From Salegentibacter sp. 24 (GTDB lineage Bacteria; Bacteroidota; Bacteroidia; Flavobacteriales; Flavobacteriaceae): a stretch of DNA of 36,773 bases. How positions within the stretch are numbered: the stretch's first letter is position 1; the number at the start of each line of letters is the position of its first letter. Position numbers and translations under genes: made by a program. Positions 7,682 through 33,538 of this stretch are shown here, in pieces. Location of the stretch: positions 1 through 36,773 of the forward strand of contig NZ_SNWE01000030.1 of the NCBI RefSeq assembly GCF_004362395.1, written 5' to 3'. The notes beneath the pieces are model-generated. The model ran no database searches. It worked only from the letters and a program-made list of their open reading frames with translations, and was not told the DNA's origin.

Positions 7682-7702
7682 ATAAAACTGGAGTTTATTT
7701 AA

Positions 7703-9768: not shown

Positions 9769-12523
9769 TACGCAGGCTTATTAAGTGTTTAATTTTAGGC
9801 AAGTTGCGTTGGTATAGTTTGAATTCATTTGTCCATTCATCCTTTTCTTTTCCCAACTTTTTCAACTTAGATTCCTTAATATTTTCAATTCCTATTTTTT
9901 CAATCCGGGATTGCCGGAAAGCGAAAGATCTCAACTTATTTTCACGTTTATTTCGTAGCCTAGAAACTAACTCTGTTTCAAGGTTTTTGAATACTGAAAA
10001 AAGGTATTCTTCCAGGTCCTGTTCAAGTTTCTGAAAGTCAATTTCAGTTTTTGTGGTTTTATATTTAAAAGTATGTTCTGAAGTGATTAGTCTCTGCCAA
10101 ACATCATTAGCATATGCAGTATATTGCTTTCCATTATCGGTTAGGAAAAATGCCTGATAGGTGGTTTTTTTCTCAAAATGATTTTGAGCTGTTACTTCCC
10201 ATAGGCTCCATATTCCTGGAGTGTCATAATCTTCATTAGATGAGATTACGGGTAGACCTCTCTCTGTATTAAATTCACCAAGTTCGTTGAGAATCTTTTT
10301 CACCCAGGAATGTTGCAGCGTAATATGTTCCAGACCAGGATGTGCCATAGCTTTTTCTGCCTCAAAAGTGAATTTAAATTTTCCTGAATTAGTTTGTATC
10401 TGATAAGTTGATTCCTGAATCTTTTCCGGAGGCTCCCCATTGATTTCAGAATAAATTTTCACCAGCTTTTCCAACCACAGAGGTAAAGGGCTGTTTTTAA
10501 TTTCAGAAGCTTTCTTATATTCAATTTCTTCTTCTTTCACTTCTGGAAGTATTCCTTCTGTGCTTTGGTAATCTTTTAGCTTGGCTCTAATTTCATTAAG
10601 CCATTTATCCCCAAAAAAATCAAACTTTTCCGGATCAAGGAGACTTTGCAGGTAAAGAGTATTCACATTCTTTGGATCTATAGCTGAATCCAGAACATCT
10701 GAGGTTTTGTCTATTCCCAGTTGATTAAGAATTGTGCTCAGTTTTTCTTCTATAACCTCATATACCCGTTGATCTACTGTATTATTGGAAAGCATATTAT
10801 AAGCTCTCACTCTGTTCTTTTGCCCAATTCGGTCTACCCGACCTATGCGCTGCTCAATCATCATAGGATTCCAGGGAAGATCATAATTAAAAACTATATG
10901 GCAAAATTGCATATTAAGAGATTCACCGGCGGCATCTGTTGCAACAAGAATTTGTGCATTTTCTTTAAAGTTTACAAGTGCCTTTTTACGAGTTTCTATA
11001 TCCTGACTTCCATTAATTACCTCGCAGCTGAAACCTTGTCTTTCAAACACCTTTTGCAACATCCCCTGTGTTGTACGGAATTCTGTGAAAACCAGAATTT
11101 TTAATTGCTCATCCCCATATTCCCGGCGCAGTTCTTTATATTTTCTGATTAAAGCTTCAGCCTTGGCATCTGTTTCACTGTTAAGACAATCCTTTGCCTG
11201 CTCTATTAAGTCCTGGAGGATACTTTCCTCGTCCTCTATACCTTCTTCAATAGAAGCATGAAGATGATCAAATTCAATTAAATCGCTATAATTTTGAACA
11301 TTCTCATCGTATTCTGATACATAATCCTCATTATCCAAATCTCCGGTTTGCAAGCGATTTAGTCTGCCTTGCATAGCCGATAGGATGGCTGCTGTAGAGC
11401 TACTCACCAGGCGTTGGAAAAGCACCATTATCAAACCTGTAGCCTTGTTTTTCGAAAGTCGTGCTGTTTTGAATCCTTTCCTTACATAATTGGTGACAGC
11501 GTCATATAAGGCTATTTGATTTCTATGAGATACCTGGTCTAAAATTACATCCAGCTTTATTGTTTGCCGTTCATTAAAAAGCTTTTTACCTTCATAATCC
11601 ACCGCTAATCTCTTTTCGGTCCTAATTACGTAAGGTTCCAGTTCGTTTAGAGAAGGGATGCCTTCTCCCTGAAAAGCATCTGGATCCAGGAGTTTTAAGA
11701 TACGGCGAAAATGATCTGATTTCCCCCGGTGTGGTGTGGCGGTAAGTAATAATACATTGCTCACGGCATTACATAATGCCTGGGCCAACTGGTAGCGGGA
11801 AACCGTTTGATTTGCGCCTCCCATTTTATGAGCCTCGTCTATAATTACCAGATCAAAGTCTGCATTGAGTACCGCTTCCAAACGATATTTATTATATTCA
11901 TCTACCCGCTCCTGAGACCAGCCTTGTCTTGTTTCCAAAGGTTTAAGGGCATCGGTAGAAACTATAATCTGGTTATGTTGTTCCCAAAAATTCAGTTCCT
12001 GGTCTGCAGAAATATTTGCGAATGTTCTGGCGTAAGAGCTTATGGTTTCGGAATCATATATATGGAATAACTCATTAAAATGTTCCTTTAACTCACTCTG
12101 CCATTGCAGAATTGAAGATTTTGGAGTAATTACCAAAATTCTTTTTATTTCTTCTCTAAGTTTTAATTCCTTAAGAATAAGTCCGGTTTCTATAGTTTTC
12201 CCCATCCCCACTTCATCAGCTAGTAAAAACCGATTATGTGGAGATTGCATTACTTTTTCCAGGACCAGCACCTGATGCGGAAGTGGTATAAGACTACTTT
12301 CATAAGGAGCCAGGAGATGCTTTTTAGCTATCTCATCTCTAATTTTTGCTCCCAGGGCGATGAACTCTAAGTATGGAAGAGAATAATTTGAATGAGGTTT
12401 TTCCAAATCGTCTATGGCAATTTCCTTAAAGCTGCCATCCTCAAGCATTTTGATCCAGGCGAGGTCCTGACCGAAAACTTTTTTAGTACTAATTACTTCA
12501 ACCGGTTTTCCCTGATACTTCAT
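9758..12523 (-). CDS. brxHII: BREX SNF2-type helicase BrxHII
   Basis: The 921-residue protein is a superfamily 2 DNA translocase of the SNF2/HepA kind. Walker A is DEVGMGKT (103-110), the DEAH box is at 229-232 and motif III is TATPHRG (261-267). The second RecA domain has ILVFTEFRTTQGML, VATDAAGESLNMQ and motif VI QRIGRVDRIGQ (557-567). A long C-terminal region without a recognised domain follows. Its ATG overlaps the stop of the upstream nucleotidyltransferase gene by 4 bp (ATGA), so the two are translationally coupled. In type 3 BREX the helicase normally follows the methyltransferase gene; here two AbiE-like genes come between. Confidence 0.88.
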   Translation of the reverse strand: MKYQGKPVEVISTKKVFGQDLAWIKMLEDGSFKEIAIDDLEKPHSNYSLPYLEFIALGAKIRDEIAKKHLLAPYESSLIPLPHQVLVLEKVMQSPHNRFLLADEVGMGKTIETGLILKELKLREEIKRILVITPKSSILQWQSELKEHFNELFHIYDSETISSYARTFANISADQELNFWEQHNQIIVSTDALKPLETRQGWSQERVDEYNKYRLEAVLNADFDLVIIDEAHKMGGANQTVSRYQLAQALCNAVSNVLLLTATPHRGKSDHFRRILKLLDPDAFQGEGIPSLNELEPYVIRTEKRLAVDYEGKKLFNERQTIKLDVILDQVSHRNQIALYDAVTNYVRKGFKTARLSKNKATGLIMVLFQRLVSSSTAAILSAMQGRLNRLQTGDLDNEDYVSEYDENVQNYSDLIEFDHLHASIEEGIEDEESILQDLIEQAKDCLNSETDAKAEALIRKYKELRREYGDEQLKILVFTEFRTTQGMLQKVFERQGFSCEVINGSQDIETRKKALVNFKENAQILVATDAAGESLNMQFCHIVFNYDLPWNPMMIEQRIGRVDRIGQKNRVRAYNMLSNNTVDQRVYEVIEEKLSTILNQLGIDKTSDVLDSAIDPKNVNTLYLQSLLDPEKFDFFGDKWLNEIRAKLKDYQSTEGILPEVKEEEIEYKKASEIKNSPLPLWLEKLVKIYSEINGEPPEKIQESTYQIQTNSGKFKFTFEAEKAMAHPGLEHITLQHSWVKKILNELGEFNTERGLPVISSNEDYDTPGIWSLWEVTAQNHFEKKTTYQAFFLTDNGKQYTAYANDVWQRLITSEHTFKYKTTKTEIDFQKLEQDLEEYLFSVFKNLETELVSRLRNKRENKLRSFAFRQSRIEKIGIENIKESKLKKLGKEKDEWTNEFKLYQRNLPKIKHLISLRIDA

Positions 12524-13365
12524 TCTGTAATTCCTGTTTTAAATTCAACTAGGATTTCCTGAGCCAGATCAAGATCCCAAGCTTCCTGGCTAGCCCACTT
12601 CTTTAAAAAATCGGAAGAGGCAGCGGAAGAAGTATGTTCTTCAAGGATTTCCAGAACTCTTCTCTCCAGCCTTTCTGAAGCATTAAGATACTTGCGGGCA
12701 TTTCTCCCCAGGACACGAGCAGCTATTTTTAACTTTCCTGTTTTATTTAATTCCCCTTCAGGAAAAACATCATTATGTTCTTCCAGAATTTCATCAAAAT
12801 TATAATCAAAGTAATGCTTAATTATCTTTAAGATATCCCCCGGGTCCTGGCCCCGGTCTTCAGGCCTGTCACTCCAGGCTACCAGTTTTAAAATAATCAT
12901 TCCCGGGAGCGGAGGAATTTGCACTAATTTTTTGTCTATATACACCTCCCGCGAATCTTCCAATACTTCCTTAAGGCCAACAACGTGAAGATCTATTTGG
13001 CGTTTATCAAAATTCTGGGTGAATTCCTGCTCAATTTCTCCAAAGGGAAGCACATCTATTACAGCATTAAAAGCTTTATTATAAAAGGTCCAGGGAGCTT
13101 TTACTTTTGTAAAATTTTTCTCCTCCAGGTCTTTGGTGATTTTTTTATAATCCTCACCAGAAGAAATCATAACCGCAAAATCGATATCCTTGGTACCCCG
13201 GCTGGGTTTAATGCCCTCTTTTAATAATTCCAGCGCAATGGCATTAACGCCGATTAAGTAATAAGGGATCTTATTCTTTTGCATTATCTCATCGATAATT
13301 TCAAAAACCTCCTTAAAATAAGGAATAGCAAGTTCTTTATAGGACTGGTTGGATGTACTCATCAA
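12520..13365 (-). CDS. AbiEii-like nucleotidyltransferase
   Basis: The 281-residue protein has the minimal nucleotidyltransferase pattern: YYLIGVNAIALELL (35-48) corresponds to the usual hG-G/N motif and TKDIDFAV (58-65) carries the D-x-D metal pair. A further Asp in AVIDVLPFGE can be the third ligand. This matches the AbiEii/AbiGii toxin family, in which such enzymes pair with an AbiEi antitoxin-repressor and can arrest growth by acting on tRNA or other targets. It overlaps the AbiEi-like gene upstream by 29 bp and brxHII downstream by 4 bp, so it is built into the BREX operon. Whether it is a toxin here is inferred. The start could be the next ATG, 3 bp on. Confidence 0.75.
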   Translation of the reverse strand: MMSTSNQSYKELAIPYFKEVFEIIDEIMQKNKIPYYLIGVNAIALELLKEGIKPSRGTKDIDFAVMISSGEDYKKITKDLEEKNFTKVKAPWTFYNKAFNAVIDVLPFGEIEQEFTQNFDKRQIDLHVVGLKEVLEDSREVYIDKKLVQIPPLPGMIILKLVAWSDRPEDRGQDPGDILKIIKHYFDYNFDEILEEHNDVFPEGELNKTGKLKIAARVLGRNARKYLNASERLERRVLEILEEHTSSAASSDFLKKWASQEAWDLDLAQEILVEFKTGITE

Positions 13366-14308
13366 AAATCTTTTGTGCGGTTTCCCGGCAACGTTTGTCT
13401 TCTTTTAGAATTAGATCGGCATAGACCAGGAAAGGAGGGGCAACAGGACCAAAATCTCCCTTCCAGAATTTTTCATAAACAAATAATTCTCCTTCAGCAT
13501 TAGGTCTAAGGCTATAATTTTTCATCAGGTTTACCGGAGACTCGTTGCTATACAATATGAATTCTTCCGGCCTTAAGTAACCGGTAAGTAAATCACCTGC
13601 AGGCTCTCCTCCCCAATGAGTTTCTCCCTTATTTAATTTGAGATTTTTCCAATCTTCCCGAAGTTCATAACGCGCCCGGAATAATTTAGGTTTCAGTTGT
13701 TGTTCGTAATCATTAATCCAGCGATCTAATAAAGCCTTACGATCTTCCCAGAGATAATTGTTTTTGTGAGCGATTAAATAGCCTTCCTCTTTTAAGGTTT
13801 TAATCACTTTAGGCACGGTGCCCAGACTTACGCCACTTTTTTCTGCTATGATTCTTTGCCTTGCATTTACTAACTCAGGATCAATTAAAAAACTGAAAAC
13901 CAGTTTTAATCCGGTTTTGGTGAAGGCCTTTTTACCAGAATACTTTTTATTTTTAATTGACTTTTTGGATTCTATAAAGACATAATTGTTTTCATAATTT
14001 ATAAAAACACTTCCGTTTTCCTCCAGGTAGGCTATTCCCTCTTTCTGCAAGCGTTTTTTTATAGCCGGATGCAGCTTTTCCGCTACCAGTATAAAATTTC
14101 CATACTGCTGCTTTCTTTCCAATAGCTGGGGAATTTGATGCTGGCGTAATTCTTTTTTAATTTCAAAAACCATCCTTAAAGTCTCCTTGCTGAAGGGAAA
14201 ATGGAAAAGAAGGTCTCCATCTAGAGTATGAGATTCTTCTAATTTCGCATAGATGTGCCCTGGTCTTTCTAAATTGCTCAACGCATTATAAACGATCTCT
14301 GTTTCCAT
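13337..14308 (-). CDS. AbiEi-like antitoxin/transcriptional regulator
   Basis: The 323-residue protein looks like the AbiEi_2 type of regulator paired with nucleotidyltransferase toxins. An N-terminal nuclease-fold-like region has strands such as NFILVAEKL, GIAYLEENGSVFINY and YVFIESK. A winged helix is seen at about 147-185 (RQRIIAEKSGVSLGTVPKV, then TLKEEGYLI). It is translationally coupled to the nucleotidyltransferase through a 29-bp overlap. Upstream is a 76-bp spacer after pglXI with a 53-bp four-half-site operator, one half-site touching the start region, so self-repression is likely. AbiEi proteins are known to repress their own promoter through inverted repeats. The same operator layout occurs ahead of the BREX operon. 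Confidence 0.7.
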   Translation of the reverse strand: METEIVYNALSNLERPGHIYAKLEESHTLDGDLLFHFPFSKETLRMVFEIKKELRQHQIPQLLERKQQYGNFILVAEKLHPAIKKRLQKEGIAYLEENGSVFINYENNYVFIESKKSIKNKKYSGKKAFTKTGLKLVFSFLIDPELVNARQRIIAEKSGVSLGTVPKVIKTLKEEGYLIAHKNNYLWEDRKALLDRWINDYEQQLKPKLFRARYELREDWKNLKLNKGETHWGGEPAGDLLTGYLRPEEFILYSNESPVNLMKNYSLRPNAEGELFVYEKFWKGDFGPVAPPFLVYADLILKEDKRCRETAQKIFDEYIQPVL

Positions 14309-14309
14309 T

Positions 14310-14362
14310 TGTTCACGTTTTTTCTTTGTTCACGATTCGTGAACATCGTAAATTTATGAACA
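14310..14362. promoter_or_regulatory. Four-half-site operator before the AbiEi-like gene
   Basis: Half-sites are TGTTCA at 14310-14315, TGTTCA at 14327-14332, TGAACA at 14340-14345 and TGAACA at 14357-14362. The centre is a perfect 19-bp palindrome (14327-14345) with spacer CGATTCG between GTTCA and TGAAC. Starts are spaced 17, 13 and 17 bp. The outermost half-site begins 2 bp before the start codon. A bound dimer pair here would block an internal promoter of the BREX operon. Confidence 0.8.
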
Positions 14363-14384
14363 AATATACAAATCCCATCCTATT

Positions 14385-17015
14385 TTATACTCTTGAAGAA
14401 GCGATATCATAGAATTGTAATAGGACCTCATCTTCCATAAGCAGCTGATTTGGAATTTTATCTCCTACGGTAACTATGGTTTTAAAATCTTTATCCTGAT
14501 AGCTTTGTTTAAAACCTGCACGTAATGCTTCTACCCTCGCTTCTTTAATTTTCCCTTTAGGTTTAAGTGCCTCCTTTTTATATTCCTCAAACTGGCGAAG
14601 CAGGCGTTTGTTTCTTAATTTTTCTAAATCTGCTTCATTCTCAGGGTCTGGCACATACCATTTACCGTTAGCATTTTTAAGAAAATTTTCTTCCAAAATA
14701 GCACTAAGCTCAGGAATAATATCTCCTTTTCTTACCCCAGCAAGAGCCTGCATCCATTGGGGATGAATATCCTGATAAGTTTGTTCTTTCTCCTGGAGTA
14801 GGTTTTTAAGCCATAAAACTCCATCCTGCTCTGATGATACTAAAATAGAAAGCTGAACAAAATCTGGCACCTCCGCCTTCTTCTTATCATATTGCTGTAC
14901 CTGTTCCTGGGTAAAGAACATCCCGTCTCGCTCTGCAAAATTTTTATTAAGAAAATTTCTAAAAGCAATAGAATCTAACGGTACTGGCAAATTAAATACT
15001 AAATAATGTTTCAATATTTTATCATAAATCAACTTTGACGACCTTTCCAGAATATTCATTCTTGAATTTTTGCGAATAATTGTAACTGGAAGGTGCTCCA
15101 AAAGTTGTTCTGTCAATTCAAGAATAGAAATGTTCTCAGTATTTGCTGAGTCCTTTCCAAATTCTCCTTCAGGCTTGAAACAATTAATTATCAAATTCTG
15201 TTTCACAGCTGTAGGACCTATCATAGCATGTAGTCCACCTCTCTCATTATTATTAGTAATAATATTAGAGACGATAAAACCAGATCTATTCAAAGCGTTT
15301 TGAATTGTATTCCAGATCGCAGCACTTGTATTGGAAAATTGTAAGGTCATATATTTGCCAGGCTTTAACACTCTAAATAATTCGGAAAAAGAAGTAATCA
15401 TAAGATTCTGATAATCGAACTTAGATTTCATTTGAGTTTTATTCTCAATTGCTTCTTTATCGTTATTAGTTCTTAAACCCAACCAACTTTCAGTTAACTG
15501 ATTCAATTCTGAATACATAATATTAGCACCAAATGGCGGATCAATAAATATATAATCTATACTAGATGGTTTTAAATTAGAAAGATGCGTAGCGGATCCT
15601 ATTTGTGAAGCGTTTAAAGAATGATTATTTACAAAAGCCTTAAAAATCTTCTTTGATTGAAATTCTAATTGTCTTAGTGGGTTATTTTCTACATACATAG
15701 GTGGGATATACAAGGTATTGGCCATAGGACCTACAAGGGCTCTACTCCCATGTTTCGGCATATACCTATTCATACGGGTTAATTTTGGTAATATAGATGT
15801 AAGAAGAAACAGAAAGAAATTTTGGTCAGTTAATTTTTGTTGTTTTACTAAATCAAAATAAATTTTCAGAAAACTTCTTATTCGAGGAGAATAAAATTGA
15901 TGAATATACTTTACTCCTACTCTATATGGATCACTAGATTTATCTCCTTTTTCTAGTTTCACCGCAGGAAACAAATCCTTCAGTTGACTGTCAAAATCAT
16001 TATTAGAATGTTTTAGATCTTGTTTATCAGGAGTTTTTATTTTTCTTTTTTTGTCTACAGAGAAATTAATATGAACAGGCACATACTTAACCTGTTCTAT
16101 TGGCTCATTAAGATATTGATCAAAAGTCGTCTCTTTTACAGGATTAGCTTCAGTCCTTTTTTGACTTGTTCCACATTTAGGACAAACTATAATATCAGTG
16201 AAATTTTTGTTCACATAATCAGAAGTAAGATTATGAAAATTTAGTTCTTCACCACATGAATAACAAAGAAGCACTTCACTCCAAACCTGATAATTTATTT
16301 GGTAATCTTTTGATGCATTTTGAGTGTTGAATAAATAGCCAACCTTTTCTTCTAAATCTTTCTGAAAAATTTTATATTTCTTTCTAATTTCATTTACATC
16401 AAAATTTGAATTAAAAATTTTAGAAATATGAAATGCTAATGGAGCCAAATCATTAAGAATTGCCTTTCTCTTTCCTATATTTTCTTCCTTGACCCCGAAC
16501 TCGTGAATAAATCTATTTTTTAATTCGTGATCATTTCCATCACATTTCCTTGCTGCGACACCTGCCATTCCAGTTCCAGCAAAGGTATCAATAACTATAT
16601 CTCCAGGCCTTGTAAAATGAAAATAGAGCCTACAAATAGCAGGATGAGGAACTTTGGTATGATAAGAGTGAGATCTATAAATGTCATTGTTAACAGATTC
16701 AATAATATTTTCGGAAAAGGGTAAAACCAAATTTGAGTCTGCCCCTCTTCTTCCTTTTTTTTCCAGTTCCAGCTTTTCTTCCTCCCATTGCTCAATAAAA
16801 TCATTCAGCCAGGGATTGGGACAGGCTGTATAATACGGTGGGTCGGAGAGGTTCAGGATATCCTCGTCTTCTCCAATAGGAAAACCTTCCATCTTCTTAA
16901 GCTCAGGTAGTTTTTTCCGCAGTTCTTCCCTGAAATATTCCCTTCTTTCTTCTTCGCTGGAAAAAGTTTTTCCTAATACAGTGATCGTTTCTTCTTGTAT
17001 CTCCTGGTTTTCCAT
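14385..17015 (-). CDS. pglXI: BREX adenine-type DNA methyltransferase PglXI
   Basis: The 876-residue protein is a DNA methyltransferase. SAM-binding motif I is DTFAGTGMAG (143-152) and catalytic motif IV is DPPFGANIMYSE (492-503). An additional SDPPYYTACPNPW at 57-69 is characteristic of large PglX/DUF1156-like enzymes. A zinc ribbon with Cys251/Cys254 and Cys278/Cys281 sits between the motifs. In BREX the methyltransferase marks host DNA and is also needed for phage exclusion. It starts 5 bp after the brxC stop. A 76-bp operator-bearing spacer follows before the AbiEi-like gene. Confidence 0.88.
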   Translation of the reverse strand: MENQEIQEETITVLGKTFSSEEERREYFREELRKKLPELKKMEGFPIGEDEDILNLSDPPYYTACPNPWLNDFIEQWEEEKLELEKKGRRGADSNLVLPFSENIIESVNNDIYRSHSYHTKVPHPAICRLYFHFTRPGDIVIDTFAGTGMAGVAARKCDGNDHELKNRFIHEFGVKEENIGKRKAILNDLAPLAFHISKIFNSNFDVNEIRKKYKIFQKDLEEKVGYLFNTQNASKDYQINYQVWSEVLLCYSCGEELNFHNLTSDYVNKNFTDIIVCPKCGTSQKRTEANPVKETTFDQYLNEPIEQVKYVPVHINFSVDKKRKIKTPDKQDLKHSNNDFDSQLKDLFPAVKLEKGDKSSDPYRVGVKYIHQFYSPRIRSFLKIYFDLVKQQKLTDQNFFLFLLTSILPKLTRMNRYMPKHGSRALVGPMANTLYIPPMYVENNPLRQLEFQSKKIFKAFVNNHSLNASQIGSATHLSNLKPSSIDYIFIDPPFGANIMYSELNQLTESWLGLRTNNDKEAIENKTQMKSKFDYQNLMITSFSELFRVLKPGKYMTLQFSNTSAAIWNTIQNALNRSGFIVSNIITNNNERGGLHAMIGPTAVKQNLIINCFKPEGEFGKDSANTENISILELTEQLLEHLPVTIIRKNSRMNILERSSKLIYDKILKHYLVFNLPVPLDSIAFRNFLNKNFAERDGMFFTQEQVQQYDKKKAEVPDFVQLSILVSSEQDGVLWLKNLLQEKEQTYQDIHPQWMQALAGVRKGDIIPELSAILEENFLKNANGKWYVPDPENEADLEKLRNKRLLRQFEEYKKEALKPKGKIKEARVEALRAGFKQSYQDKDFKTIVTVGDKIPNQLLMEDEVLLQFYDIASSRV

Positions 17016-17020
17016 TTTCC

Positions 17021-20000
17021 TTACTTTAAAATAATTCTAATCGTCTCGCGGTCTTTTCCTTTGGTCACTTCATCTATATAGGCTTTAAAAGCCTCAATAG
17101 CTTCATCAGGTTTCAAAGGTTTATTAAAAGTAGTTTTAAGGCTTTCCGGGGAAAGTTCAACTTTATTAAGGCCTCTTTGTAGTTCTGCAATCGCGGTTTT
17201 AATACTCCGTACATTAGCTTTTTTTAGCTCTGTATTTCCTGCTTTAAAATCCTGCAATAATTTTTTATCGCCTTCTTTTAACAAAGAAAGATTTTTAACC
17301 AACATAGGATCTTCCAGGGTTTCTCTTAGCATTAGTTGAAAATGCTCCGTGATTTCCTGTAGTTGCTTTTTCAGTTCCTTAATACTCTTTGGTTCCTTAT
17401 CGAGATACGCTATCGGGTTAAAGTCGTGAAAGGGCGCAGTAAGAATTAAATCTAAGGTAACTTCAGGATCGGCTGCTTTTAAACGGTTAAGATCTTCCTT
17501 CCATGCAAGATACTCGGCGGTAGGGAGGAACTCTGCGGTTTGGAGTTCATCACAGATAAATTTCTCTTCTGAATCCTGCAGGATGTCCTTTTGTGTATTA
17601 TCGGCCTCAGAGATGCGATATTTCAGGTAAAAATGTTGATAATAGTGAGCGTACTCCTTACGCAATGTTTCCAAATGATGTTTGTGCGCCTTGATCTTCT
17701 GCACGTTCCCGGATGAAAGAATTTCAGGAAGTTCATTTATAGCCTTTGTGAATCGCTGCCGCAAATCATCATCCGCGATATAAGCTTTGGCCTGTTGAAG
17801 GTAGTTAAGTATTCCTTTATATTCTTCTTTTTCCTGGAGCTGCTGTTCTACTTTTTCAACCTCCGGCTTTACCTGCATTTGCTTCTTCACCTCCTCTACC
17901 GAATAGGGGAAATTTTTAATACGCGCTTCAGAAGTATAAGTAGCCAGTTTATCACAGAAGCGGGAAAAGGCCAGGAAATCATTTTCATAATCTTTGGCAT
18001 CGGCTTCAGAGATAATTTCTACCGCTGAAAACTTAACACCACCGCGAATCCTATAAATAATCTTTTGAGTTTTCTGGGCCCAATCGTTAGCAGACGCAAC
18101 CAATTTAGTATAGGTCTCGGGATCTTTTAATTGTTTGCTTAGATCTCGACCTAATAAGCCTACAAACATTTCCCTAAGTGCAGCTTCATTAACTCCTTTA
18201 GGAGGTCTTATACTGGAGAAATTAAAATACTCATTCGGACTAAGGTTAAGTAATTCCGGCAAATTAGTGGAATTGATATTTAAACCGGAATTAAAGCTAA
18301 TTTCAATTTCCCCCAGTGCAGCCAGGGCAGCAAGGACTAAGAATTCCAGTTCGGCTTCAATCTTAAAGTCGGAGCTCACCCATAGTTGAGTTGGCGCGTG
18401 GCGACATTCCAGAATTTCATCGCGATTTATTACTTTACCATCCCGTTCTTTAAGCTTATTAAGAATGTTCCTGGCATAGGGAGAGTGAGTATAATCAAGA
18501 CGGCCCGGCACCCAAACGCCTAAACCTGCCAGCATACCTTCCCCATCCCGGTTAGCCTGGTTTGGATTTATAATTTTCCCCAGGCCTTGCTTGACCATTC
18601 TTACGAAATTATCTTTTGTAACCGGAGTATTTAGTTGGGAAAAATCAGGATAGTCCGGCAGTTCTTCTTCAAACCATTTCTCCAATACCTGAGAAGCGAC
18701 TTCAGAAAAAATTTGCTCTTTGGTTGCTCCACTTCCCGGGAGCTGGTAGCCGTTAAGAGGTAATTGATTTCCACGATATTCTACCTGGGTAATACGAAGA
18801 TATTCTTCATTAAAAATGTCCCGGGCTTTTTTATTGAGTTCCTTAATTTTTTGATTGTAGATAGTCTTCTGAGATGAGTCGGCCCGGGCCTCCAGGGCGA
18901 TGGCTGCACCATAGAAGCTTACCGCTTCTTTAAATTCCTCTGAAAGCTTATCCAATATAAAATACACCTCATCATTCTTATGATTCCTCTTTTTTCTGGA
19001 ATCATCAAAAATGGGCATAAAATACATGTAGAAATGCTGGATAGGCTCTGTAGTCGTCCGCTCATTCGGATTTCCGAAGAAAATGTAACCTTCCCTAAAG
19101 GTCTTATGGGATTTCCATTCCAGCGTGTGTTCCCAGATTTTAAATCCTGTGCGATAAGTGCTATTTTCCATAGGTAGGTTGTTCTCCAGGAATCTGAAAA
19201 AATATTCATCTTTCTGATCCTCATTCATTGAGCCGGCGTAATCCTTGATCTTCTGATCAAAATTAATACCGCCTTCAATTCTTAAATGAAACTCGCCATT
19301 ATTCACGTCCTGGTCAAAGTACTGGCCTGAAGTCGCCGAGATGATATGTTTTGCTGTAGAATTCATAATATCCAAAAGAAACTCCCGGTCATCGGCCAAT
19401 TTATCGGTAAGACAGAGATCATCAACCATTTCCTCTGTATTGGTGCCGTTTTGTTTATGCAATTCGTGTTGCAGGATTTTGATGGCACAGGCGTGGGAAA
19501 TACGTTCTGCGATATGCTTTTTTGAAGCCCTGGCGCCAATAAAGTAGGAGTCAATTTTATCTTTAATGGTATCGGTAACTTGTTTGATCTTTCGAACATC
19601 TGGGATTGCCATTAAATCCTGGCTACGGGTCATATCTTCCCAATAACGATCGTAGGTGAGCATCCCGGGATTATCTTTTGGAATCTCTTCCTCTAGTAAA
19701 TCTTCGAATTGTTTAGAAAGCGTTTTTAAAATTTCCCGTTGACTTTTACCAATTCTAATGCGTTCGAAATTTTCAAAATAAGTAGGATGTACAGGGAACA
19801 GTTCTATATAATCACCCGTGCGAGCGTGCATGTCGGTAAATAGGTGCAGAAAACCATCAAGATGTTGCTTGATATGTTGCTTTTGATGTTCATTTTTCTG
19901 CAATAATCGATTTTTTACTATGTAGGCAACATCCTCTTTGGTGATAATGATCCCTTTGTACCGGTCGTTTACTTTTTGCAGGGTTTCGGCGGCAAACTGG

Positions 20001-20677
20001 AATTCTGGAGAATGATAAATTAACTCCTGAACACCGAATATAAACTTGAAACGAGAAGCATCGCAAGCCTGGCCCAAAGCCTGAAGGACCTGAAGATCCT
20101 GGTTGAGTTTGTCGGCGGTACTTCTCCCTTTCAGATAAGAAAGCATTTCATCTATAACCACCATCAGGCCTTTGTCGGGATATTTTTCCTCAAATTCGGC
20201 CATCATTAATTTGATCTTCTCGGCATAGGTAATAGGGCCGTGACCTTCAAAAGAGAATGGAACACCAATACCGTCCAGGTAGGTTTCCAGTTTATAGGTT
20301 ATCACTTCCCAAAGGCTTTCCGTATTTCCCAATTCAAAGCGAAGCACCTTAAATTTACCGGCAATTTTTTCCAGTTCATTTTTAGGTTTTTCTTCTGTGA
20401 CCAAGTCGAGCAGTTCGCTGTCTTCTGCAATCAAAGAAATCAATGACATCATATGGGATTTACCTGTCCCGTAATTACCCACCACCTGTAGGCCAAATGC
20501 TTCCTGAGATTGCTTGAAATCAAGGTTCCGAATCATCAAAGGCAGTAAATTATCGCGAAAGGCATTTGAGAAAACAAAAGTTTTTACAAGATTTTGCTGG
20601 TAATCTTTCTTTTCAGTTTCGCTAAACTTTACAATCTCTGTGATTGGATTAAAGTTTAATATGTCTTTATATTTCAT
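17021..20677 (-). CDS. brxC: BREX ATPase BrxC
   Basis: The 1218-residue protein is the large AAA-type ATPase of BREX (DUF6079/PglY kind). Walker A is GNYGTGKSH (67-75) and Walker B is LMVVIDEM (171-178). The long C-terminal part is helical, with coiled-coil-like segments (for example VEEVKKQMQVKPEVEKVEQQ). BrxC is thought to form oligomers that work with the methyltransferase and PglZ. Its ATG overlaps the brxF stop by 4 bp, so the two are coupled. The length is normal for the family and no interruption is seen. Confidence 0.88.
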   Translation of the reverse strand: MKYKDILNFNPITEIVKFSETEKKDYQQNLVKTFVFSNAFRDNLLPLMIRNLDFKQSQEAFGLQVVGNYGTGKSHMMSLISLIAEDSELLDLVTEEKPKNELEKIAGKFKVLRFELGNTESLWEVITYKLETYLDGIGVPFSFEGHGPITYAEKIKLMMAEFEEKYPDKGLMVVIDEMLSYLKGRSTADKLNQDLQVLQALGQACDASRFKFIFGVQELIYHSPEFQFAAETLQKVNDRYKGIIITKEDVAYIVKNRLLQKNEHQKQHIKQHLDGFLHLFTDMHARTGDYIELFPVHPTYFENFERIRIGKSQREILKTLSKQFEDLLEEEIPKDNPGMLTYDRYWEDMTRSQDLMAIPDVRKIKQVTDTIKDKIDSYFIGARASKKHIAERISHACAIKILQHELHKQNGTNTEEMVDDLCLTDKLADDREFLLDIMNSTAKHIISATSGQYFDQDVNNGEFHLRIEGGINFDQKIKDYAGSMNEDQKDEYFFRFLENNLPMENSTYRTGFKIWEHTLEWKSHKTFREGYIFFGNPNERTTTEPIQHFYMYFMPIFDDSRKKRNHKNDEVYFILDKLSEEFKEAVSFYGAAIALEARADSSQKTIYNQKIKELNKKARDIFNEEYLRITQVEYRGNQLPLNGYQLPGSGATKEQIFSEVASQVLEKWFEEELPDYPDFSQLNTPVTKDNFVRMVKQGLGKIINPNQANRDGEGMLAGLGVWVPGRLDYTHSPYARNILNKLKERDGKVINRDEILECRHAPTQLWVSSDFKIEAELEFLVLAALAALGEIEISFNSGLNINSTNLPELLNLSPNEYFNFSSIRPPKGVNEAALREMFVGLLGRDLSKQLKDPETYTKLVASANDWAQKTQKIIYRIRGGVKFSAVEIISEADAKDYENDFLAFSRFCDKLATYTSEARIKNFPYSVEEVKKQMQVKPEVEKVEQQLQEKEEYKGILNYLQQAKAYIADDDLRQRFTKAINELPEILSSGNVQKIKAHKHHLETLRKEYAHYYQHFYLKYRISEADNTQKDILQDSEEKFICDELQTAEFLPTAEYLAWKEDLNRLKAADPEVTLDLILTAPFHDFNPIAYLDKEPKSIKELKKQLQEITEHFQLMLRETLEDPMLVKNLSLLKEGDKKLLQDFKAGNTELKKANVRSIKTAIAELQRGLNKVELSPESLKTTFNKPLKPDEAIEAFKAYIDEVTKGKDRETIRIILK

Positions 20678-21093
20678 AGTTTTAATAAACTTAGATGGTC
20701 TAGATTGATTTTAATGCCCCTATTTTCTGAAAGGTAAAAAAGCGTTTTCCCTTTAATCTGCCCTGGCCAACATAGTACAATTAAAGTATCACGGGAAAAA
20801 TTTTCCAGAAATGATATGAAGCTAAATTTCAACTCAGGTTCCAGTAATATACCCGGATTTTTTATGGCTATCAGTTTGCCTAAAGCGGGCTTCAAAATTA
20901 CATTTTTATCGATTAGCTTTTGAATTTCAGTTTCCGCTATTAGAGGTAGTCTTCTCGTAAGATTTTTATCCTTTAAGATCATTGCCAATTCTTCCCCTAT
21001 ATTCAAATAGGAGAAATCAAGTATTTCCTTATTAGAAATAATAATTTTATTTCTGGGATTCTGATCTAAAAAATCTGGGATGGAACCCGGCAT
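20674..21093 (-). CDS. brxF: BrxF-like small BREX-3 protein
   Basis: The 139-residue protein sits directly before brxC with a 4-bp overlap, the usual place of BrxF in type 3 BREX. YLNIGEELAMIL (40-51 region) and the C-terminal IVLCWPGQIKGKTLFYLSE resemble the ends of BrxF proteins as I remember them. BrxF is described as a small P-loop protein, but no G-x-x-x-x-G-K-S/T is present in this frame; the equivalent N-terminal segment reads NKIIISNKEIL. The P-loop is therefore lost or the protein is a divergent relative. Function is unknown beyond being part of the complex. Confidence 0.6.
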   Translation of the reverse strand: MPGSIPDFLDQNPRNKIIISNKEILDFSYLNIGEELAMILKDKNLTRRLPLIAETEIQKLIDKNVILKPALGKLIAIKNPGILLEPELKFSFISFLENFSRDTLIVLCWPGQIKGKTLFYLSENRGIKINLDHLSLLKL

Positions 21094-24572: not shown

Positions 24573-24836
24573 TTACTTTTCAATCTTCAAATTAGGAAAC
24601 TTTTTTTCAAGTTGTCTAAAGAAATCTGAAACGCTTATTCGCCTTTCTTGACATATTTTGAAGAGTGTTTCCACTGGAATTCGATAATTCGGGGTGTTTT
24701 TGATTTTACGGACGGTACTTTCTAAGATGTTATGATGGTCGGCAAAACCTACTTGTGTGCCTCCGTTGGCTAAAAATGGATTGATCCATTCTTTAGTTAT
24801 AAACTCACAAATAGCTTTATTGATCTCCTTTGCCAT
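24573..24836 (-). CDS. Small HTH (XRE-like) regulator
   Basis: The 87-residue protein looks like a compact helix-turn-helix regulator. TQVGFADHHNILESTVRKIKN (27-47 region) gives the two DNA-binding helices, and TLFKICQERRISVSDFFRQLE is the typical following helices of XRE-like proteins in Flavobacteriaceae. It stands alone. An 18-bp perfect palindrome lies 33 bp before its start, so self-regulation is plausible. The neighbouring sigma/dCas12f locus begins on the other side of the same intergenic region, so it could also act there. Confidence 0.65.
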   Translation of the reverse strand: MAKEINKAICEFITKEWINPFLANGGTQVGFADHHNILESTVRKIKNTPNYRIPVETLFKICQERRISVSDFFRQLEKKFPNLKIEK

Positions 24837-24869: not shown

Positions 24870-24887
24870 CTCGTTCGATCGAACGAG
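24870..24887. promoter_or_regulatory. 18-bp perfect palindrome, probable operator
   Basis: CTCGTTCG followed by AT and CGAACGAG is a perfect palindrome (CTCGTTCGATCGAACGAG). It lies 33 bp before the start of the HTH gene in an AT-rich stretch, so its G+C-rich arms stand out. The HTH protein is the obvious candidate ligand. Confidence 0.65.
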
Positions 24888-25029
24888 TTTAAAATATTTT
24901 TATTATATTTATCTCATATTAATATATTTGCGAAACTTCTTAAAGTAAAATATTAGAAGCATTCGCTTTGATTCTCGCATCAAAAACTGGTAATTTTTAG
25001 CGACGAGATGATGAGTGTAAATGCTCACG

Positions 25030-25108
25030 ACCCGGGCGTGGGCTTTACTTATTGTCGTGCGGTATACCAGTACCTTGATGCTATAAGTTGAGTCTCCACG
25101 CCTTTTTT
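25030..25108 (+). ncRNA. Rod-like structured RNA with intrinsic terminator
   Basis: GGCGTGG (25035-25041) pairs with CCACGCC (25096-25102), ACTTAT (25047-25052) pairs with ATAAGT (25083-25088), and GGTA (25061-25064) pairs with TACC (25071-25074). Six T follow the outer stem (25103-25108). The result is a rod with internal loops that ends in a terminator. It lies 126 bp before the sigma gene. The outline recalls 6S-type RNAs or an attenuator leader. I cannot assign a family. The 5' end is not defined and may lie upstream. Confidence 0.5.
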
Positions 25109-25205
25109 CGTTTGTAGGAAACAGGTATTTTTCTCAATTGTTTTCAAAGCTATCTTCTCTTAATTCTTTATAAGAATTCGCATAAGCTAAATTCAGTTTA
25201 ATTCT

Positions 25206-25234: not shown

Positions 25235-26023
25235 ATGCTTATGTTACAGCGTATTTTTGAATTATTACAACAAGGACATCCCGATGCTTTGGAATATATC
25301 TATAGCAAGTACCACCGTAGGCTCTTTTGGTTAGGAAAGCAATTAATTCAGGATGAATTTGTCATTGAAACCATCCTTCAGGATACATTCTTGAAACTAT
25401 GGGAGAATAGAGATGGGATAGAACGACCAGAACATATTTACTTTTTCCTTCGCTATGTAATGAAAAGAGATTGTACCTATTATTATGCCCGCCCTAAGAA
25501 TAATTTTTACCGGAACATCAACCGGCTGGAATATTATGAAAACTATCAAGAATACATGCACGGCTATGATCCCGAGAAGGAGGATGAACTTCTACTGGAT
25601 AGCGGAACCCAGCAGAAAGCCTTTGACCGGGTAAGCCGTGTTTTTCCATTACTTAGCCCTGAAAGACGACGCCTGATAGAACTCTGTTTAAAATACGGTT
25701 TTCAGTATAAAGCCATTGCCCAGCTTATGGGAACCAGTATTACCTACACCAGCAACGAGGTAAAAAGGGCTATCGAGGATATTAAAAACATCATTCACCA
25801 AGGGAGCAATTTGGTATCAAAACCAAAACCGGTGGTAGCAATTAAGATTCAGGGGGAAATGACCGAGGAACAGGAAAAGGTCTTAAAGCTTCGTACGGAA
25901 AGACAGTATTCCTTCGCTGCCATTGCCAAAGAACTGAACCTTTCCCAAAAGGAAGTCCATAAGGAATTTATGGCCGCCTATAAGCTACTGCAACTCAAAC
26001 ACGAACAACAACAATCGGCTTAG
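25235..26023 (+). CDS. ECF-like sigma factor partner of dCas12f
   Basis: The 262-residue protein is an ECF-type sigma factor. Sigma region 2 is at about 16-85 (DALEYIYSKYHRRLFWLGKQ, IETILQDTFLKLWENRD, YFFLRYVMKRDC). Sigma region 4 is at about 139-187 (LLSPERRRLIELCLKYGF, YKAIAQLMGTS, SNEVKRAIEDIKNII). Unlike ordinary ECF factors of some 180-200 residues it continues with a linker and a second helix-turn-helix at about 209-252 (TEEQEKVLKLRTERQYSFAA, AKELNLSQKEVHKEFMAAYK). No anti-sigma gene is adjacent. The Cas12f-like gene follows after 2 bp. Sigma factors next to nuclease-dead Cas12f in Bacteroidota have been reported to be recruited by the Cas12f-guide complex and to start transcription there. 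The start may be ATG 25235 or 25241. Confidence 0.85.
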   Translation: MLMLQRIFELLQQGHPDALEYIYSKYHRRLFWLGKQLIQDEFVIETILQDTFLKLWENRDGIERPEHIYFFLRYVMKRDCTYYYARPKNNFYRNINRLEYYENYQEYMHGYDPEKEDELLLDSGTQQKAFDRVSRVFPLLSPERRRLIELCLKYGFQYKAIAQLMGTSITYTSNEVKRAIEDIKNIIHQGSNLVSKPKPVVAIKIQGEMTEEQEKVLKLRTERQYSFAAIAKELNLSQKEVHKEFMAAYKLLQLKHEQQQSA

Positions 26024-26025
26024 TT

Positions 26026-27123
26026 ATGGGAAAAGATACGCTAAAACTAACCCGAAAGATACAGTTACTGGTTGATCTGCCTACCAAAGAAGAACGAAAG
26101 GAGGCTCTGGATAAACTCTACCAGTGGCGCAACCGCAGCTTTAAGGCGGCTAATCTTATCATTAGTCATCTCTATGTTCAGGAAATGATCCAGGAATTCT
26201 TTTATTTAACCGAAGGCATAAAATATAAACTGGCCGATGAAAAGAAAGATGAAGCCGGCATCCTGAACCGCTCCCGCATCAATGCCACCTACCGGGTAGT
26301 GTCCGACCGCTATAAAGGGGAAATCCCTACCAATATTTTAGGTAATATCAACCACAATTTAATGGGTACCTTCCAGAAACATAAGGTAGAATACTGGAAG
26401 GGGGAACGCTCCCTGATGAACTTTAGAAGGGATATGGCTTTTCCGTTTGATATGGAGGGCATGAAAGGATTATGTTATGACGAAGAGAAAAAAGCCTTTT
26501 GTTTTCGTTTGTTTTCCATTCCGCTAAAAACATATTTAGGAAGGGATTATTCCGATAAGCGAAAGCTACTGGAGGGGGTAGTAGCAGGAGAAACCAAGCT
26601 TTGTACTTCCCAAATTCAAATAAAAAAGGATAAAACTTTTTTGCTGGCCACCTTTGAAATTGAAAAAGAAAAGCATCTTTTAAAACCTAATGTAATCGCG
26701 GAAGCTTCTTTATCACTGGAATATCCGATTATAGTAAAGACCGGAAAGACAAAACTCAACATCGGCTCCCGGGAAGAATTTCTATATCGCAGGTTGGCCA
26801 TACAAGCCGCCCGTAAAAGGGCACAGGAAGGAGTTACCTATGCAAGATCAGGGAAAGGGCGAAAACGAAAAACCAAAGCAGTGCAAAGGTTCCACGAGCT
26901 GGAAAAGAATTACGTGACTAACCGGCTGCACCTCTACAGCCGGCAATTAATCAACTTTTGCGTCAAACACCAGGCCGGCACGCTTATTTTGATCAACCAG
27001 GAAGATAAGATTGGAATTGCCAAAGAGGAGGAATTTGTGCTGAGAAACTGGAGCTATTATGAACTGATAGCCAAAATAACATACAAGGCCGAAAAAGCCG
27101 GCATTGAACTGATAACAGACTGA
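26026..27123 (+). CDS. Nuclease-dead Cas12f homologue (dCas12f)
   Basis: The 365-residue protein aligns by eye with Cas12f. The N-terminal part has the Cas12f recognition/wedge-like pattern (LYQWRNRSFKAANLIISHLY; RRDMAFPFDMEGMKGL; TFLLATFEIE). The RuvC part follows the family order: GSREEFLYRR, a Lys/Arg-rich stretch at 262-285, KNYVTNRLHLYSRQLINF, AGTLIL, NWSYYELIAKITYKAEKAGI. The RuvC-I motif G-x-D-L-G reads ASLSL, putting Ser228 in place of Asp. In RuvC-II Ile323 replaces the Glu of ILME-type strands. The protein ends at GIELITD, before the zinc finger and RuvC-III Asp. It should bind a guide RNA and DNA but not cut. It is fused in operon to the sigma gene and followed 14 bp later by three guide-like repeats. 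No TnpA, Cas1 or Cas2 is present. Confidence 0.88.
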   Translation: MGKDTLKLTRKIQLLVDLPTKEERKEALDKLYQWRNRSFKAANLIISHLYVQEMIQEFFYLTEGIKYKLADEKKDEAGILNRSRINATYRVVSDRYKGEIPTNILGNINHNLMGTFQKHKVEYWKGERSLMNFRRDMAFPFDMEGMKGLCYDEEKKAFCFRLFSIPLKTYLGRDYSDKRKLLEGVVAGETKLCTSQIQIKKDKTFLLATFEIEKEKHLLKPNVIAEASLSLEYPIIVKTGKTKLNIGSREEFLYRRLAIQAARKRAQEGVTYARSGKGRKRKTKAVQRFHELEKNYVTNRLHLYSRQLINFCVKHQAGTLILINQEDKIGIAKEEEFVLRNWSYYELIAKITYKAEKAGIELITD

Positions 27124-27136
27124 AAAATGACATTTC

Positions 27137-27235
27137 GAGGGTGCTTGTACATCCATAAGGTGAGGTTAAAAATTACACTCACTAAATGCGCATAGCATAT
27201 ACAATGGCGTGTCATCCCACTTTTATTGAATAGTG
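27137..27235 (+). ncRNA. Guide-RNA-like unit 1 (75-nt scaffold plus guide)
   Basis: The scaffold is 27137-27211, starting GAGGGTG and ending GGCGTG. Predicted stems are GGGTG/CATCC around CTTGTA (with a G-U pair), GTGAG/CTCAC, and ATGC-GCATA-GCAT. The next nine bases TCATCCCAC (27212-27220) differ from the other units, after which the conserved T-rich flank TTTTATTGAATAGTGAA follows. It starts 14 bp after the dCas12f stop on the same strand. The guide probably begins at 27212; its length is not certain. It is my reading that this is a guide RNA. Confidence 0.75.
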
Positions 27236-27298
27236 AATTATATATACAGAAGCTTATTTGGAAGAATTGAACAGAAAAAAATTAAAATAATTAACGAA

Positions 27299-27398
27299 GA
27301 GGGTGCTTGTACACCCATTAGGTGAGGTTGAAAATTACACTCACTGAATGCGCTTAGCATATACAACGGCGTGAGTTGCTCTTTTATTTGAATAGTGA
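27299..27398 (+). ncRNA. Guide-RNA-like unit 2 (75-nt scaffold plus guide)
   Basis: The scaffold is 27299-27373 and differs from unit 1 at about six of 75 positions. The first stem is perfect here (GGGTG/CACCC), the second is GTGAG/CTCAC, and the third is ATGC-GCTTA-GCAT. The variable segment is AGTTGCTC (27374-27381), followed by TTTTATTTGAATAGTGAA. Its start is 162 bp after that of unit 1. The downstream flank also shares CAGAGGCTTATTT with unit 1, so the units arose by duplication of blocks of about 160 bp. Confidence 0.75.
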
Positions 27399-27457
27399 AA
27401 AATATGCAGAGGCTTATTTTAAAATAACTAAAATGAAAAGTACATTATGATAATTTC

Positions 27458-27558
27458 GAGGGTGTTTGTACACCCGCAAAGTGAGGTTGAAAATTACACT
27501 CGCTAAATGCGTTTAGCATATACAACGGCGTGGGCTCTTATTTTTTGATAGTAGTCCG
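27458..27558 (+). ncRNA. Guide-RNA-like unit 3 (75-nt scaffold plus guide)
   Basis: The scaffold is 27458-27532, 159 bp after unit 2. Stems are GGGTG/CACCC with loop TTTGTA, GTGAG/CTCGC (kept by a U-G pair), and ATGC-GTTTA-GCAT. The variable segment is GGCTCTTA (27533-27540) and the T-rich flank TTTTTTGATAGTAG follows, more diverged than in units 1 and 2. Changes in the stems that keep pairing support a functional RNA. No fourth unit is seen before the next gene. Confidence 0.72.
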
Positions 27559-27804: not shown

Positions 27805-28800
27805 ATGGGATCGCAGCAGGACCAAATACTGATTTATAAAACCGAGACCGGGCAAACTCAAATTGATGTCAGGCTTGAAGAAGAAACGGTTTGGCTTACA
27901 CAAGCTCAAATGATTGCATTATTTGAATCCAGTAAGGCTAATATCAGTGAACACATTAAGCACATATTCTCATCTGGTGAGTTAGATGATAATTCAACTG
28001 TTCGGAAATTCCGAACAGTTCAAAGTGAAGGAAAGAGAGAAGTAGCCAGAGATAGAATGCACTATAATTTAGATGTAGTAATATCTGTGGGTTATCGGGT
28101 TAACTCTAAACGGGGTATTCTATTTAGACAATGGGCCAATAAAGTTCTAAAGGAATTCTTACTACAGGGATATTCCATCAATGAAAAAATACTTCGAGAA
28201 AAAACCAGCCAGCTCGAAGAACTAAAAAATGTAGGTCGCCTGCAAGAAAAAGTTATTTCTGAACACGACCTCAATACTGATGAATCTGCAGGTTTAATAA
28301 AAATTATTGCACAGTATTCTCGCGCCTTGGACCTATTAGATGACTATGATCACCAGCGGCTGGAGGTCCCTGAGGAAGGAAGTCGGGAAGTTTTTCAAAT
28401 CACCTACAGCGAAGCTCGAAAAGCAATAGATGAATTAGGAAGACAAACAAAATTCGAAGGACTATTCGGCCGGGAGAAGGACGATTCTTTTAAGGGCTCC
28501 CTGGAAAATATTTATCAAACCTTTGGAGGGGAAGACCTCTATCCCACAACCGAAGAAAAAGCAGCTCACTTGCTGTATTTTGTGGTTAAAAACCATTCAT
28601 TTTCCGATGGAAACAAACGAATTGCTGCATTTTTATTTGTCTGGTTTCTAGACCGAAACAAGATACTTTACACCCAAACCGGTAATAAAGTAATCCCGGA
28701 CAACGCCCTGGTAGCATTGACCTTATTAATTGCTGAAAGCCACCCAGGCGATAAAGAAATGATGATCAAGGTAATAGTCAATCTCATATCTCGCCACTGA
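27805..28800 (+). CDS. RhuM-family protein with C-terminal Fic/Doc domain
   Basis: The 331-residue protein joins two known domains. The N-terminal RhuM-like DNA-associated part contains VRLEEETVWLTQAQMIALF, the conserved NSTVRKFRTVQ and YNLDVVISVGYRVNSKRG. The C-terminal Fic/Doc part has the active-site motif HSFSDGNKR (264-272). Fic enzymes transfer AMP or phosphate groups to proteins. This RhuM-Fic arrangement is frequent in mobile regions, often as a single-gene toxin-like or defence-linked unit; its target is unknown. No clear inhibitory alpha-helix partner gene is adjacent. The ATG at 27805 gives the conserved N-terminus. Confidence 0.85.
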   Translation: MGSQQDQILIYKTETGQTQIDVRLEEETVWLTQAQMIALFESSKANISEHIKHIFSSGELDDNSTVRKFRTVQSEGKREVARDRMHYNLDVVISVGYRVNSKRGILFRQWANKVLKEFLLQGYSINEKILREKTSQLEELKNVGRLQEKVISEHDLNTDESAGLIKIIAQYSRALDLLDDYDHQRLEVPEEGSREVFQITYSEARKAIDELGRQTKFEGLFGREKDDSFKGSLENIYQTFGGEDLYPTTEEKAAHLLYFVVKNHSFSDGNKRIAAFLFVWFLDRNKILYTQTGNKVIPDNALVALTLLIAESHPGDKEMMIKVIVNLISRH

Positions 28801-32665: not shown

Positions 32666-33538
32666 TTAATATCCATATCCTATACCGGTATCTCTTATAA
32701 TCTTAACTGCTCCTTTTACAAGCTCTTTGGTTATTTTGGTAGACAGGTTACCGCTTAATTGCACGGTCTTATTCAAGACCTGTAGTTCCTTTGGTGCCTG
32801 CGTTAGTCTTTTTAAACCCTGGTTTTGCGAAATAGCAGGAATTAACCGGTTACCACTCATCGACCGGTGTACTTCACTGGCCTTAAGGTTCACCCCCTTG
32901 TATTCCATCCGGAAGCCCTGCAGTTGATTCGCTTTATTTATTGTGGGAATCACTTCCACCTTTTGGGACTTCATCCTGGCTATATACTCATCCAGGGATC
33001 TTGGCCTCGACTGAAGCACCCGGTCATGTATATTCCTGATTTCCTGCCGCAAGCCCTTTAACTCATGAAGCTTTTCCTGCTGTACTTCCCGAACCCTTTT
33101 AAAACCTAATTCCCTGGCAACATTATCAGCGGCGAGCTGGCTTCGTTTCCCGATAAAGCGGTCATTGTAAGTCTTACCATCAAAGCCGATCCTGTTGGTA
33201 TAGATATGAACATGGGTATGCGCCTTATCCCTGTGAACAAAGCCAATAGATTGATGGTCTTGCAGTTTCATCTCCTTTAAAAACTTCTTAGCGAGCTCTT
33301 CCAGGTCCATTTTACTGAGATCCTTCCCGTCCTCAATGTTCGGGCTGACGATAAAGCTTAAGGTGTTATTGGTACAGCGCTCATTTTGCGATTGGATAAT
33401 CCTGAACTCTTCAGCGATCTGGGCAGGAGTATTCCCGGCCACATGTTCTCGGAGTACAATTTCAGCTTCCTTTTCCTGGTTCCAGCCATAGGATATAGAA
33501 GCCCTGGTCCTGGAAATAGCATGTCCTTTTCCTATCAT
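32666..33538 (-). CDS. mobA: Relaxase/mobilization nuclease (MobA/VirD2 type)
   Basis: The 290-residue protein is a relaxase that would nick the oriT strand and stay bound to its 5' end. The metal site is HTHVH (107-111) within FVHRDKAHTHVHIYTNRI, with His102 before it. The N-terminal SISYGWN (14-20) offers the catalytic Tyr. It overlaps the mobC stop by 4 bp, so the two are coupled. It is shorter than many relaxases, as usual for Bacteroidota mobilizable elements that borrow the transfer machinery of other elements. Confidence 0.88.
   Translation of the reverse strand: MIGKGHAISRTRASISYGWNQEKEAEIVLREHVAGNTPAQIAEEFRIIQSQNERCTNNTLSFIVSPNIEDGKDLSKMDLEELAKKFLKEMKLQDHQSIGFVHRDKAHTHVHIYTNRIGFDGKTYNDRFIGKRSQLAADNVARELGFKRVREVQQEKLHELKGLRQEIRNIHDRVLQSRPRSLDEYIARMKSQKVEVIPTINKANQLQGFRMEYKGVNLKASEVHRSMSGNRLIPAISQNQGLKRLTQAPKELQVLNKTVQLSGNLSTKITKELVKGAVKIIRDTGIGYGY

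Follow-up and report, generated by a model that had tools for sequence, protein, structure and literature searches.

A sigma factor-dCas12f operon of Salegentibacter sp. 24 whose guides probably land on an attenuator-like leader

We examine a locus of Salegentibacter sp. 24 that encodes, on the forward strand, an extracytoplasmic function (ECF)-like sigma factor, a nuclease-dead Cas12f (dCas12f) and three guide-RNA-like units, and that is preceded by a leader RNA element. The stretch analyzed, called the window here, is contig NZ_SNWE01000030.1 (36,773 nucleotides, nt), which is the entire contig C30 of a 61-contig, 4.15-Mb assembly from a genome with a completeness of 99.91%; labels such as C3, C4 and C32 denote contigs of the same genome. 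On balance, we judge it probable that the locus is an RNA-guided transcription operon of the dCas12f-sigma kind whose guides land on the attenuator-like leader, bypassing its terminator. The parts of this statement differ in strength: RNA-guided activation by the locus is likely, and a cascade in which guides land on leaders is plausible.

The operon and its guide units

The sigma factor gene (25235..26023, +) is an open reading frame (ORF) of 262 amino acids, whose true start is probably the second ATG, at 25241, placed there because of its homology to chain C, 'RpoE', of PDB entry 9n9q (E 2.5e-93). The dCas12f gene (26026..27123, +; 365 amino acids) follows after a gap of 2 base pairs; its residues 1-363 align to PDB 9n9c, 'Nuclease-deactivated Cas12f' (E 7.6e-183), and PADLOC matches it to Cas12f (E 5.1e-52). 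Both ORFs are intact along their full length, and the single solved entry 9n9q contains homologues of the two. Aligned to the Cas12f of PDB 9nzo, the window's protein has Ser228 at the position of the RuvC-I Asp and Ile323 opposite the RuvC-II Glu, and it ends about 92 residues short of the end of the 506-residue chain, so that the zinc ribbon and the third Asp are gone. Taking these 9nzo residues to have the roles that we presume for them in the RuvC site and zinc ribbon, the window's Cas12f is, by alignment, nuclease-dead, and the active RuvC nuclease of CRISPR-Cas12f (type V-F) immunity is missing from it.

Guide unit 1 (27137..27228, +) consists of a scaffold at 27137-27205 and a guide, GGCGTGTCATCCCACTTTTATTG, from 27206; unit 2 (27299..27390, +) of a scaffold at 27299-27367 and the guide GGCGTGAGTTGCTCTTTTATTTG from 27368; and unit 3 (27458..27551, +) of a scaffold at 27458-27526 and the guide GGCGTGGGCTCTTATTTTTTGATAG from 27527. 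In order, the three guides read GGCGTGTCATCCCACTT, GGCGTGAGTTGCTCTTT and GGCGTGGGCTCTTATTT. The units are copies of 107 nt beginning at 27137, 27299 and 27458, the second and third being 84% and 73% identical to the first, and with this length and a spacing of 162 and 159 nt they do not form a CRISPR array of short identical repeats at the window locus. A scaffold profile scores them at E 2.7e-20, 2.2e-21 and 3.5e-20, values that are partly so by construction, as the three units were among the ten seeds of the profile. Compared over 46 units from many species, the scaffold forms three hairpins in which 7 of the 17 pairs show compensated changes. A search of the window stretch against Rfam found no family for the guide units or the leader. 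The initial annotation of the window, made from its letters, had described an ECF-like sigma gene and a catalytically dead Cas12f gene 2 bp apart with three guide-RNA-like units downstream on the same strand, and this description is borne out by the ORFs, the homology to 9n9q and 9n9c, the lost catalytic residues, the repeat copies and the scaffold with its profile and compensated fold.

The same genome holds five sigma-dCas12f operons (C30, C4, C32, C38 and C21) and 12 scaffold hits: three each on C30 and C32, two on C21, one on C4 and a truncated one on C38; C29 and C14 have one solo hit each, that on C14 being weak (E 1e-4). Copies of the last 28 dCas12f codons precede three units on C32 and C29, which points to growth of the units by tandem duplication of the gene end together with the guide. 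Among 119 related genomes, dCas12f is detected (E <= 1e-40) in 12, with one copy broken by two stops, and the guide scaffold in 14; scaffolds at G008:C17:361712-361781 and G035:C1:23457-23523 lie in genomes where no dCas12f was detected, as orphan guides or remains of lost operons. A scan of named genomes, chiefly flavobacteria judging from their titles, gives 37 loci; the nearest named homologue, at 94%, comes from Salegentibacter lacus. In Salinimicrobium marinum (L010, upstream of 9217), the sigma-dCas12f operon stands behind a susC-type upstream region with, by eye, an apparent remnant of a susC start, and looks as if it had been substituted for a susC gene.

Many guides share their first bases. 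In 35 of 63 scaffold hits, from 14 genomes, the guide begins (G)(G)CGTG after the scaffold; we call these guides class A. Their registers are GG (22), G (10), none (2) and GGA (1), and they frequently read CGTGGGCT followed by a CTTAT-like tail. The guide core GGCGTGGGCT recurs in the window at 25035-25044, upstream of the sigma gene.

The leader upstream of the sigma gene

This second occurrence lies within a leader RNA element of about 155 nt (model R1; 24957..25112, +), which a profile search finds upstream of sigma genes in many relatives and for which 25 copies have a mean column identity of 79%. The initial annotation missed this leader, which looks like the common landing site of the guides. 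In one fold, GGGCGTGGGC..CTTAT pairs with ATAAG..CCACGCC and is followed by six T, an intrinsic terminator: its 5' arm is the guide-matched core (5'-G plus GGCGTGGGCT..., 25034..25051, +), and its 3' arm (ATAAG...CCACGCC) with the T run lies at 25083..25108 (+). In the other, the same bases enter a long hairpin, so that the two folds are mutually exclusive. Paired cells amount to 97.7% for the terminator, with 7 pairs double-changed, and to 91.9% for the alternative fold, where double changes affect 11 pairs; slid versions of both, used as controls, give 30-53%, a comparison in which the folds are favored because they were derived from the same sequences on which they were tested. In 500 shuffles of the 3' letters the observed fold measures are equaled in none or one, save for the measure 'further pair types', which is reached in 7 shuffles for the terminator and in 289 for the alternative fold. 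A 3' arm could be parsed in 59 leaders and is followed by a T run in 55 of those. Two covarying folds that exclude each other, one of them a terminator with a U run, are what is expected of an attenuator or riboswitch leader; Rfam returned no match to the leader in the window or at 12 other leader loci (two hits elsewhere were below their cut-offs). A long-range helix between the 5' end of the leader and the sigma start codon, which folds well in the window, was rejected, its partner not being generally conserved in relatives.

Ahead of the leader stands the box TATATTTG (24923..24930, +), of the -7 type and matching TANNTTTG, which we take to be the Bacteroidota housekeeping consensus. Of 76 leaders, 55 have a TANNTTTG box in the preceding 60 nt, almost all at -35 to -29, against 4.2 expected from mononucleotide shuffles and 3 of 76 when displaced.

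The covariance model R1 finds these 76 leader copies in 34 of the 119 genomes, the window's genome counted among the 34. Downstream of them we recognize sigma-dCas12f in 14 cases and SusC in 27. In the window's genome there are five leaders, before the sigma-dCas12f operons of C21, C32 and C30 and before susC on C3 and C31. All 12 genomes with dCas12f have the leader, an association confounded by kinship because one genus is over-represented. Weaker leader copies (L188-L208), many of them in other families of the order, stand upstream of diverse proteins, several short and with signal-like starts, and for this reason the RNA family is broader than susC control.

Guide targets and competing readings

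We searched the whole genome for guide targets with the pattern 5'-G plus 17 nt at up to 3 mismatches, with reversed patterns as controls. The controls yield 1-3 matches per search, so a match with 3 mismatches in 18 is no more than chance would give, and therefore we use only seed or near-perfect matches as evidence. Guide 1 has three non-self matches at up to 3 mismatches, and the only one with a single mismatch is C3:25285 (17 of 18 including the 5'-G), which is the leader before an operon of susC, susD and an M16 peptidase gene, about 0.6 kb ahead of the susC start codon. Its G-preceded seed there is 12 nt, a length not reached once when shuffled guides were tried 780 times against the regions upstream of 26 susC matches (26 of the 27 SusC matches above cut-off, a fragment on C2 being excluded; sense strand, single register). 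Guide 3 likewise has three non-self matches, and the only sensible one falls in the leader that stands before the sigma-dCas12f operon on C32; its G-preceded seed is 12 nt there and 10 nt in its own leader. Because this sensible match lies in the leader of a paralogous sigma-dCas12f operon, we read guide 3 as serving auto- or cross-regulation, not a third nutrient operon. The C4 guide in turn has a G-preceded seed of 12 nt at the window's leader. For guide 2, no non-self match was found in the genome at up to 3 mismatches in 18. The initial annotation had proposed an RNA-guided transcription locus whose three guides serve three or more target genes, findable by a genome search for G plus each variable segment. 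The first half of this is well supported by homology; the second survives in part, since the search gives one good target upstream of a gene (guide 1, susC), a match in the seed only for guide 3 and none for guide 2.

Leader matching of this kind recurs in relatives. Twenty-one named sigma loci possess a full leader, and in 8 of these a guide matches that leader by a G-preceded seed of at least 10 nt (18 nt in L034); the 15 tested loci that lack a full leader (14 named loci and C4) include none with such a seed. C38, C21 and C32, the last two of which have leaders, were not part of this test. Counted by guide, a G-preceded seed at least 10 nt long occurs in a parsed leader of the same genome for 17 of the 35 in class A.

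How such matches might act follows from what has been proposed for homologues, in which a guide RNA reportedly brings dCas12f to DNA, together with an ECF sigma that recruits RNA polymerase to the site. A preprint on these systems, which come from Flagellimonas, reportedly describes a G motif and a start site set by distance, at about 46 nt. Here, the guide RNA would direct dCas12f to 5'-G-preceded, guide-matched DNA, and the bound ECF sigma would recruit RNA polymerase. The landing site would be leader DNA at the 5' terminator arm (25034-25051), and the start, about 46 nt on, would fall near 25080, beyond the 5' arm and ahead of the 3' arm (ATAAG from 25083). Initiation some 40-50 nt downstream would give a transcript that lacks the 5' arm, and the terminator therefore could not form, whereas transcripts from the housekeeping-type promoter would carry the whole leader and hence be subject to attenuation. 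dCas12f binding, initiation and terminator bypass at the leader are thus all predictions from sequence. Operons would in this way activate themselves, paralogues and susCD operons; in this genome the order may be from the C4 guide to the C30 operon, from C30 guide 3 to the C32 operon, and from C30 guide 1 to the susC operon of C3. Because the same leader precedes sigma-dCas12f and susCD operons, these steps could form one self-amplifying chain. We offer only tentatively, and would lean somewhat against it as a whole, the wider picture of RNA-guided transcription built onto an older attenuator RNA, with a chain that runs from C4 to C30 and on to C32 and the susC operon of C3, overriding attenuation.

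A number of observations, beside the targetless guide 2, weigh against landing on leaders or against the chain. Of the 35 class-A guides, 18 have no G-preceded seed of 10 nt among the parsed leaders of the genome that encodes them. In a test that shuffled 13 genomes, the agreement of guide tails with leaders within a genome did not exceed that after shuffling (match p 0.49, seed p 0.80), a negative result for coevolution of tail and leader in single genomes. The GG register is preceded by G in only 30 of the 66 leader sites that could be parsed among the 76 (the ten excluded are weak hits in other genera). Only three of the five sigma-dCas12f operons here have the leader, C4 and C38 lacking it, and the order of the chain depends on two extra matched bases past a shared 10-nt core, weak alone. 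The distance from a leader to the start of the SusC frame is 0.3-1.3 kb. For 35 of the 76 leaders, blastp with few references recognized neither sigma-dCas12f nor SusC downstream, and the leader occurs in 22 genomes with no detected dCas12f; from these last two findings we take the leader to have a role of its own. It is older than, or independent of, the dCas12f system. A short seed with a loose tail may be normal for the dCas12f-sigma family.

The missing within-genome fit of tails is also what one would expect if RNA-guided transcription takes place but its targets are conventional sites nearer susC, the leader core shared with the guides having been inherited by recombination and serving as no landing site. 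We consider this rather unlikely. It draws on the solo C29 guide, whose seed matches 11 nt at a site 236 nt ahead of where the SusC profile aligns on C14 (2 of 780 shuffles reach 11 nt; for the remaining 11 of the 13 guides tested, no seed upstream of susC is longer than 9 nt), and on Flagellimonas, where the guides of five genomes have 14 G-preceded partial matches at up to 3 mismatches of 19, 5 of them self and 9 non-self. For 4 of the 9, SusC is recognized downstream, and in three of these the frame begins 218-262 nt away; however, 9 non-self matches are not above the reversed control of 10, so the comparison comes down to position and seed. Against conventional sites stand the near-perfect and unique genomic match of guide 1 within a susC leader, and the three main registers in which guides begin after the scaffold (GG, G and none), each of which still follows a G in a leader ending in GGG.

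By eye, a second hairpin, CCTTCCCC...GGGGAAGG, stands just 5' of two susC starts (L060 at about 2120 and L061 at about 1190, -) and resembles the C32 and C21 guides, which are of the type CCTTCCCC... and show a poor ungapped fit; Flagellimonas targets likewise resemble the 5' arm of an inverted repeat. Perhaps guides in general aim at hairpin arms.

Very improbable, too, is a duplicate in decay that regulates nothing, with the activity coming instead from one of the other four operons. Guide 2 without a target, guide 3 fitting in its seed only and the truncated unit of the paralogous C38 operon would agree with decay, but both ORFs of the window are intact at full length and the target of guide 1 is near-perfect. 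We give scarcely any credence to guide RNAs acting in trans on leader RNA, mimicking the 5' arm and pairing with the 3' arm so as to block termination: the guide sequence does equal the terminator 5' arm, GGCGTGG is complementary to CCACGCC and tail mismatches would then be of little consequence, but the pairing spans only about 7 nt, homologues of dCas12f and sigma occur together in 9n9q, the window operon encodes a sigma factor, and the mechanism reported for such pairs is directed at DNA.

Neighborhood, known relatives and significance

Between the box and a small divergent ORF (24573..24836, -; 87 amino acids in the ORF list) lies the palindrome CTCGTTCGATCGAACGAG (24870..24887), which was detected as a minus-strand terminator-like stem and is a possible operator. 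The ORF probably encodes a DNA-binding repressor, as its translation reads like a helix-turn-helix protein; Pfam gave no family for it, and blastp (E <= 1e-3) places a relative of one of three small ORFs of this type divergent to 24 of the 71 leaders of other genomes. Directly 3' of the guide units is a RhuM-Fic fusion gene (27805-28800, +; PF13310 and PF02661). Further away are a BREX-like defence island (6725-21093, -), in which PADLOC recognizes BrxC/PglY, PglX, the BrxH helicase, PglZ, BrxA and BrxF (8 ORFs scanned, 2 unmatched), and, at the left contig end, a SusC-like N-terminal fragment (56-1285, -; 409 amino acids, profile positions 2-343). An ORF at 32666-33538 (-) reads in translation like a relaxase, and its presence suggests that the region is part of a mobile element.

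The closest known systems are the dCas12f-sigmaE systems of PDB 9n9c, 9n9m, 9n9o and 9n9q, with which the window shares homologous dCas12f and sigma proteins, gene order, a downstream scaffold, the G-preceded target of guide 1 and the link to susC. It differs from them in having five operons in one genome, three tandem guides, and guides matching an attenuator-like leader that also stands before some of the operons. By the features compared, the predicted activator fits this known kind, except that a clear target exists for only one of its three guides. Riboswitch and attenuator leaders in general have, like the window's, a promoter box, alternative folds and an intrinsic terminator before transport genes, whereas the leader here has no Rfam match and also contains a site matched by guides. 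TldR proteins, nuclease-dead TnpB repressors (Wiegand 2024, via PMC13418256), resemble the locus in combining a nuclease-dead TnpB/Cas12 relative with a guide RNA for gene control; they are described as repressors, whereas the window locus couples a sigma gene.

We regard as new the five operons and 12 scaffold hits in one genome, the leader with its two folds and its place before sigma-dCas12f, susC and other genes, and the matches between guides and leader. The leader, its folds and its use as a guide-matched site were not found in Rfam or in the literature searched, which did not include the primary dCas12f-sigma paper, where part of this may be reported. The analysis adds a leader RNA absent from Rfam; 34 of the 119 related genomes carry it, and the genes that follow it include susC and sigma-dCas12f. 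If our reading is right, the locus would show natural targets and wiring of RNA-guided transcription, with positive feedback and cross-talk among paralogous operons, and a terminator that is bypassed by initiating inside it.

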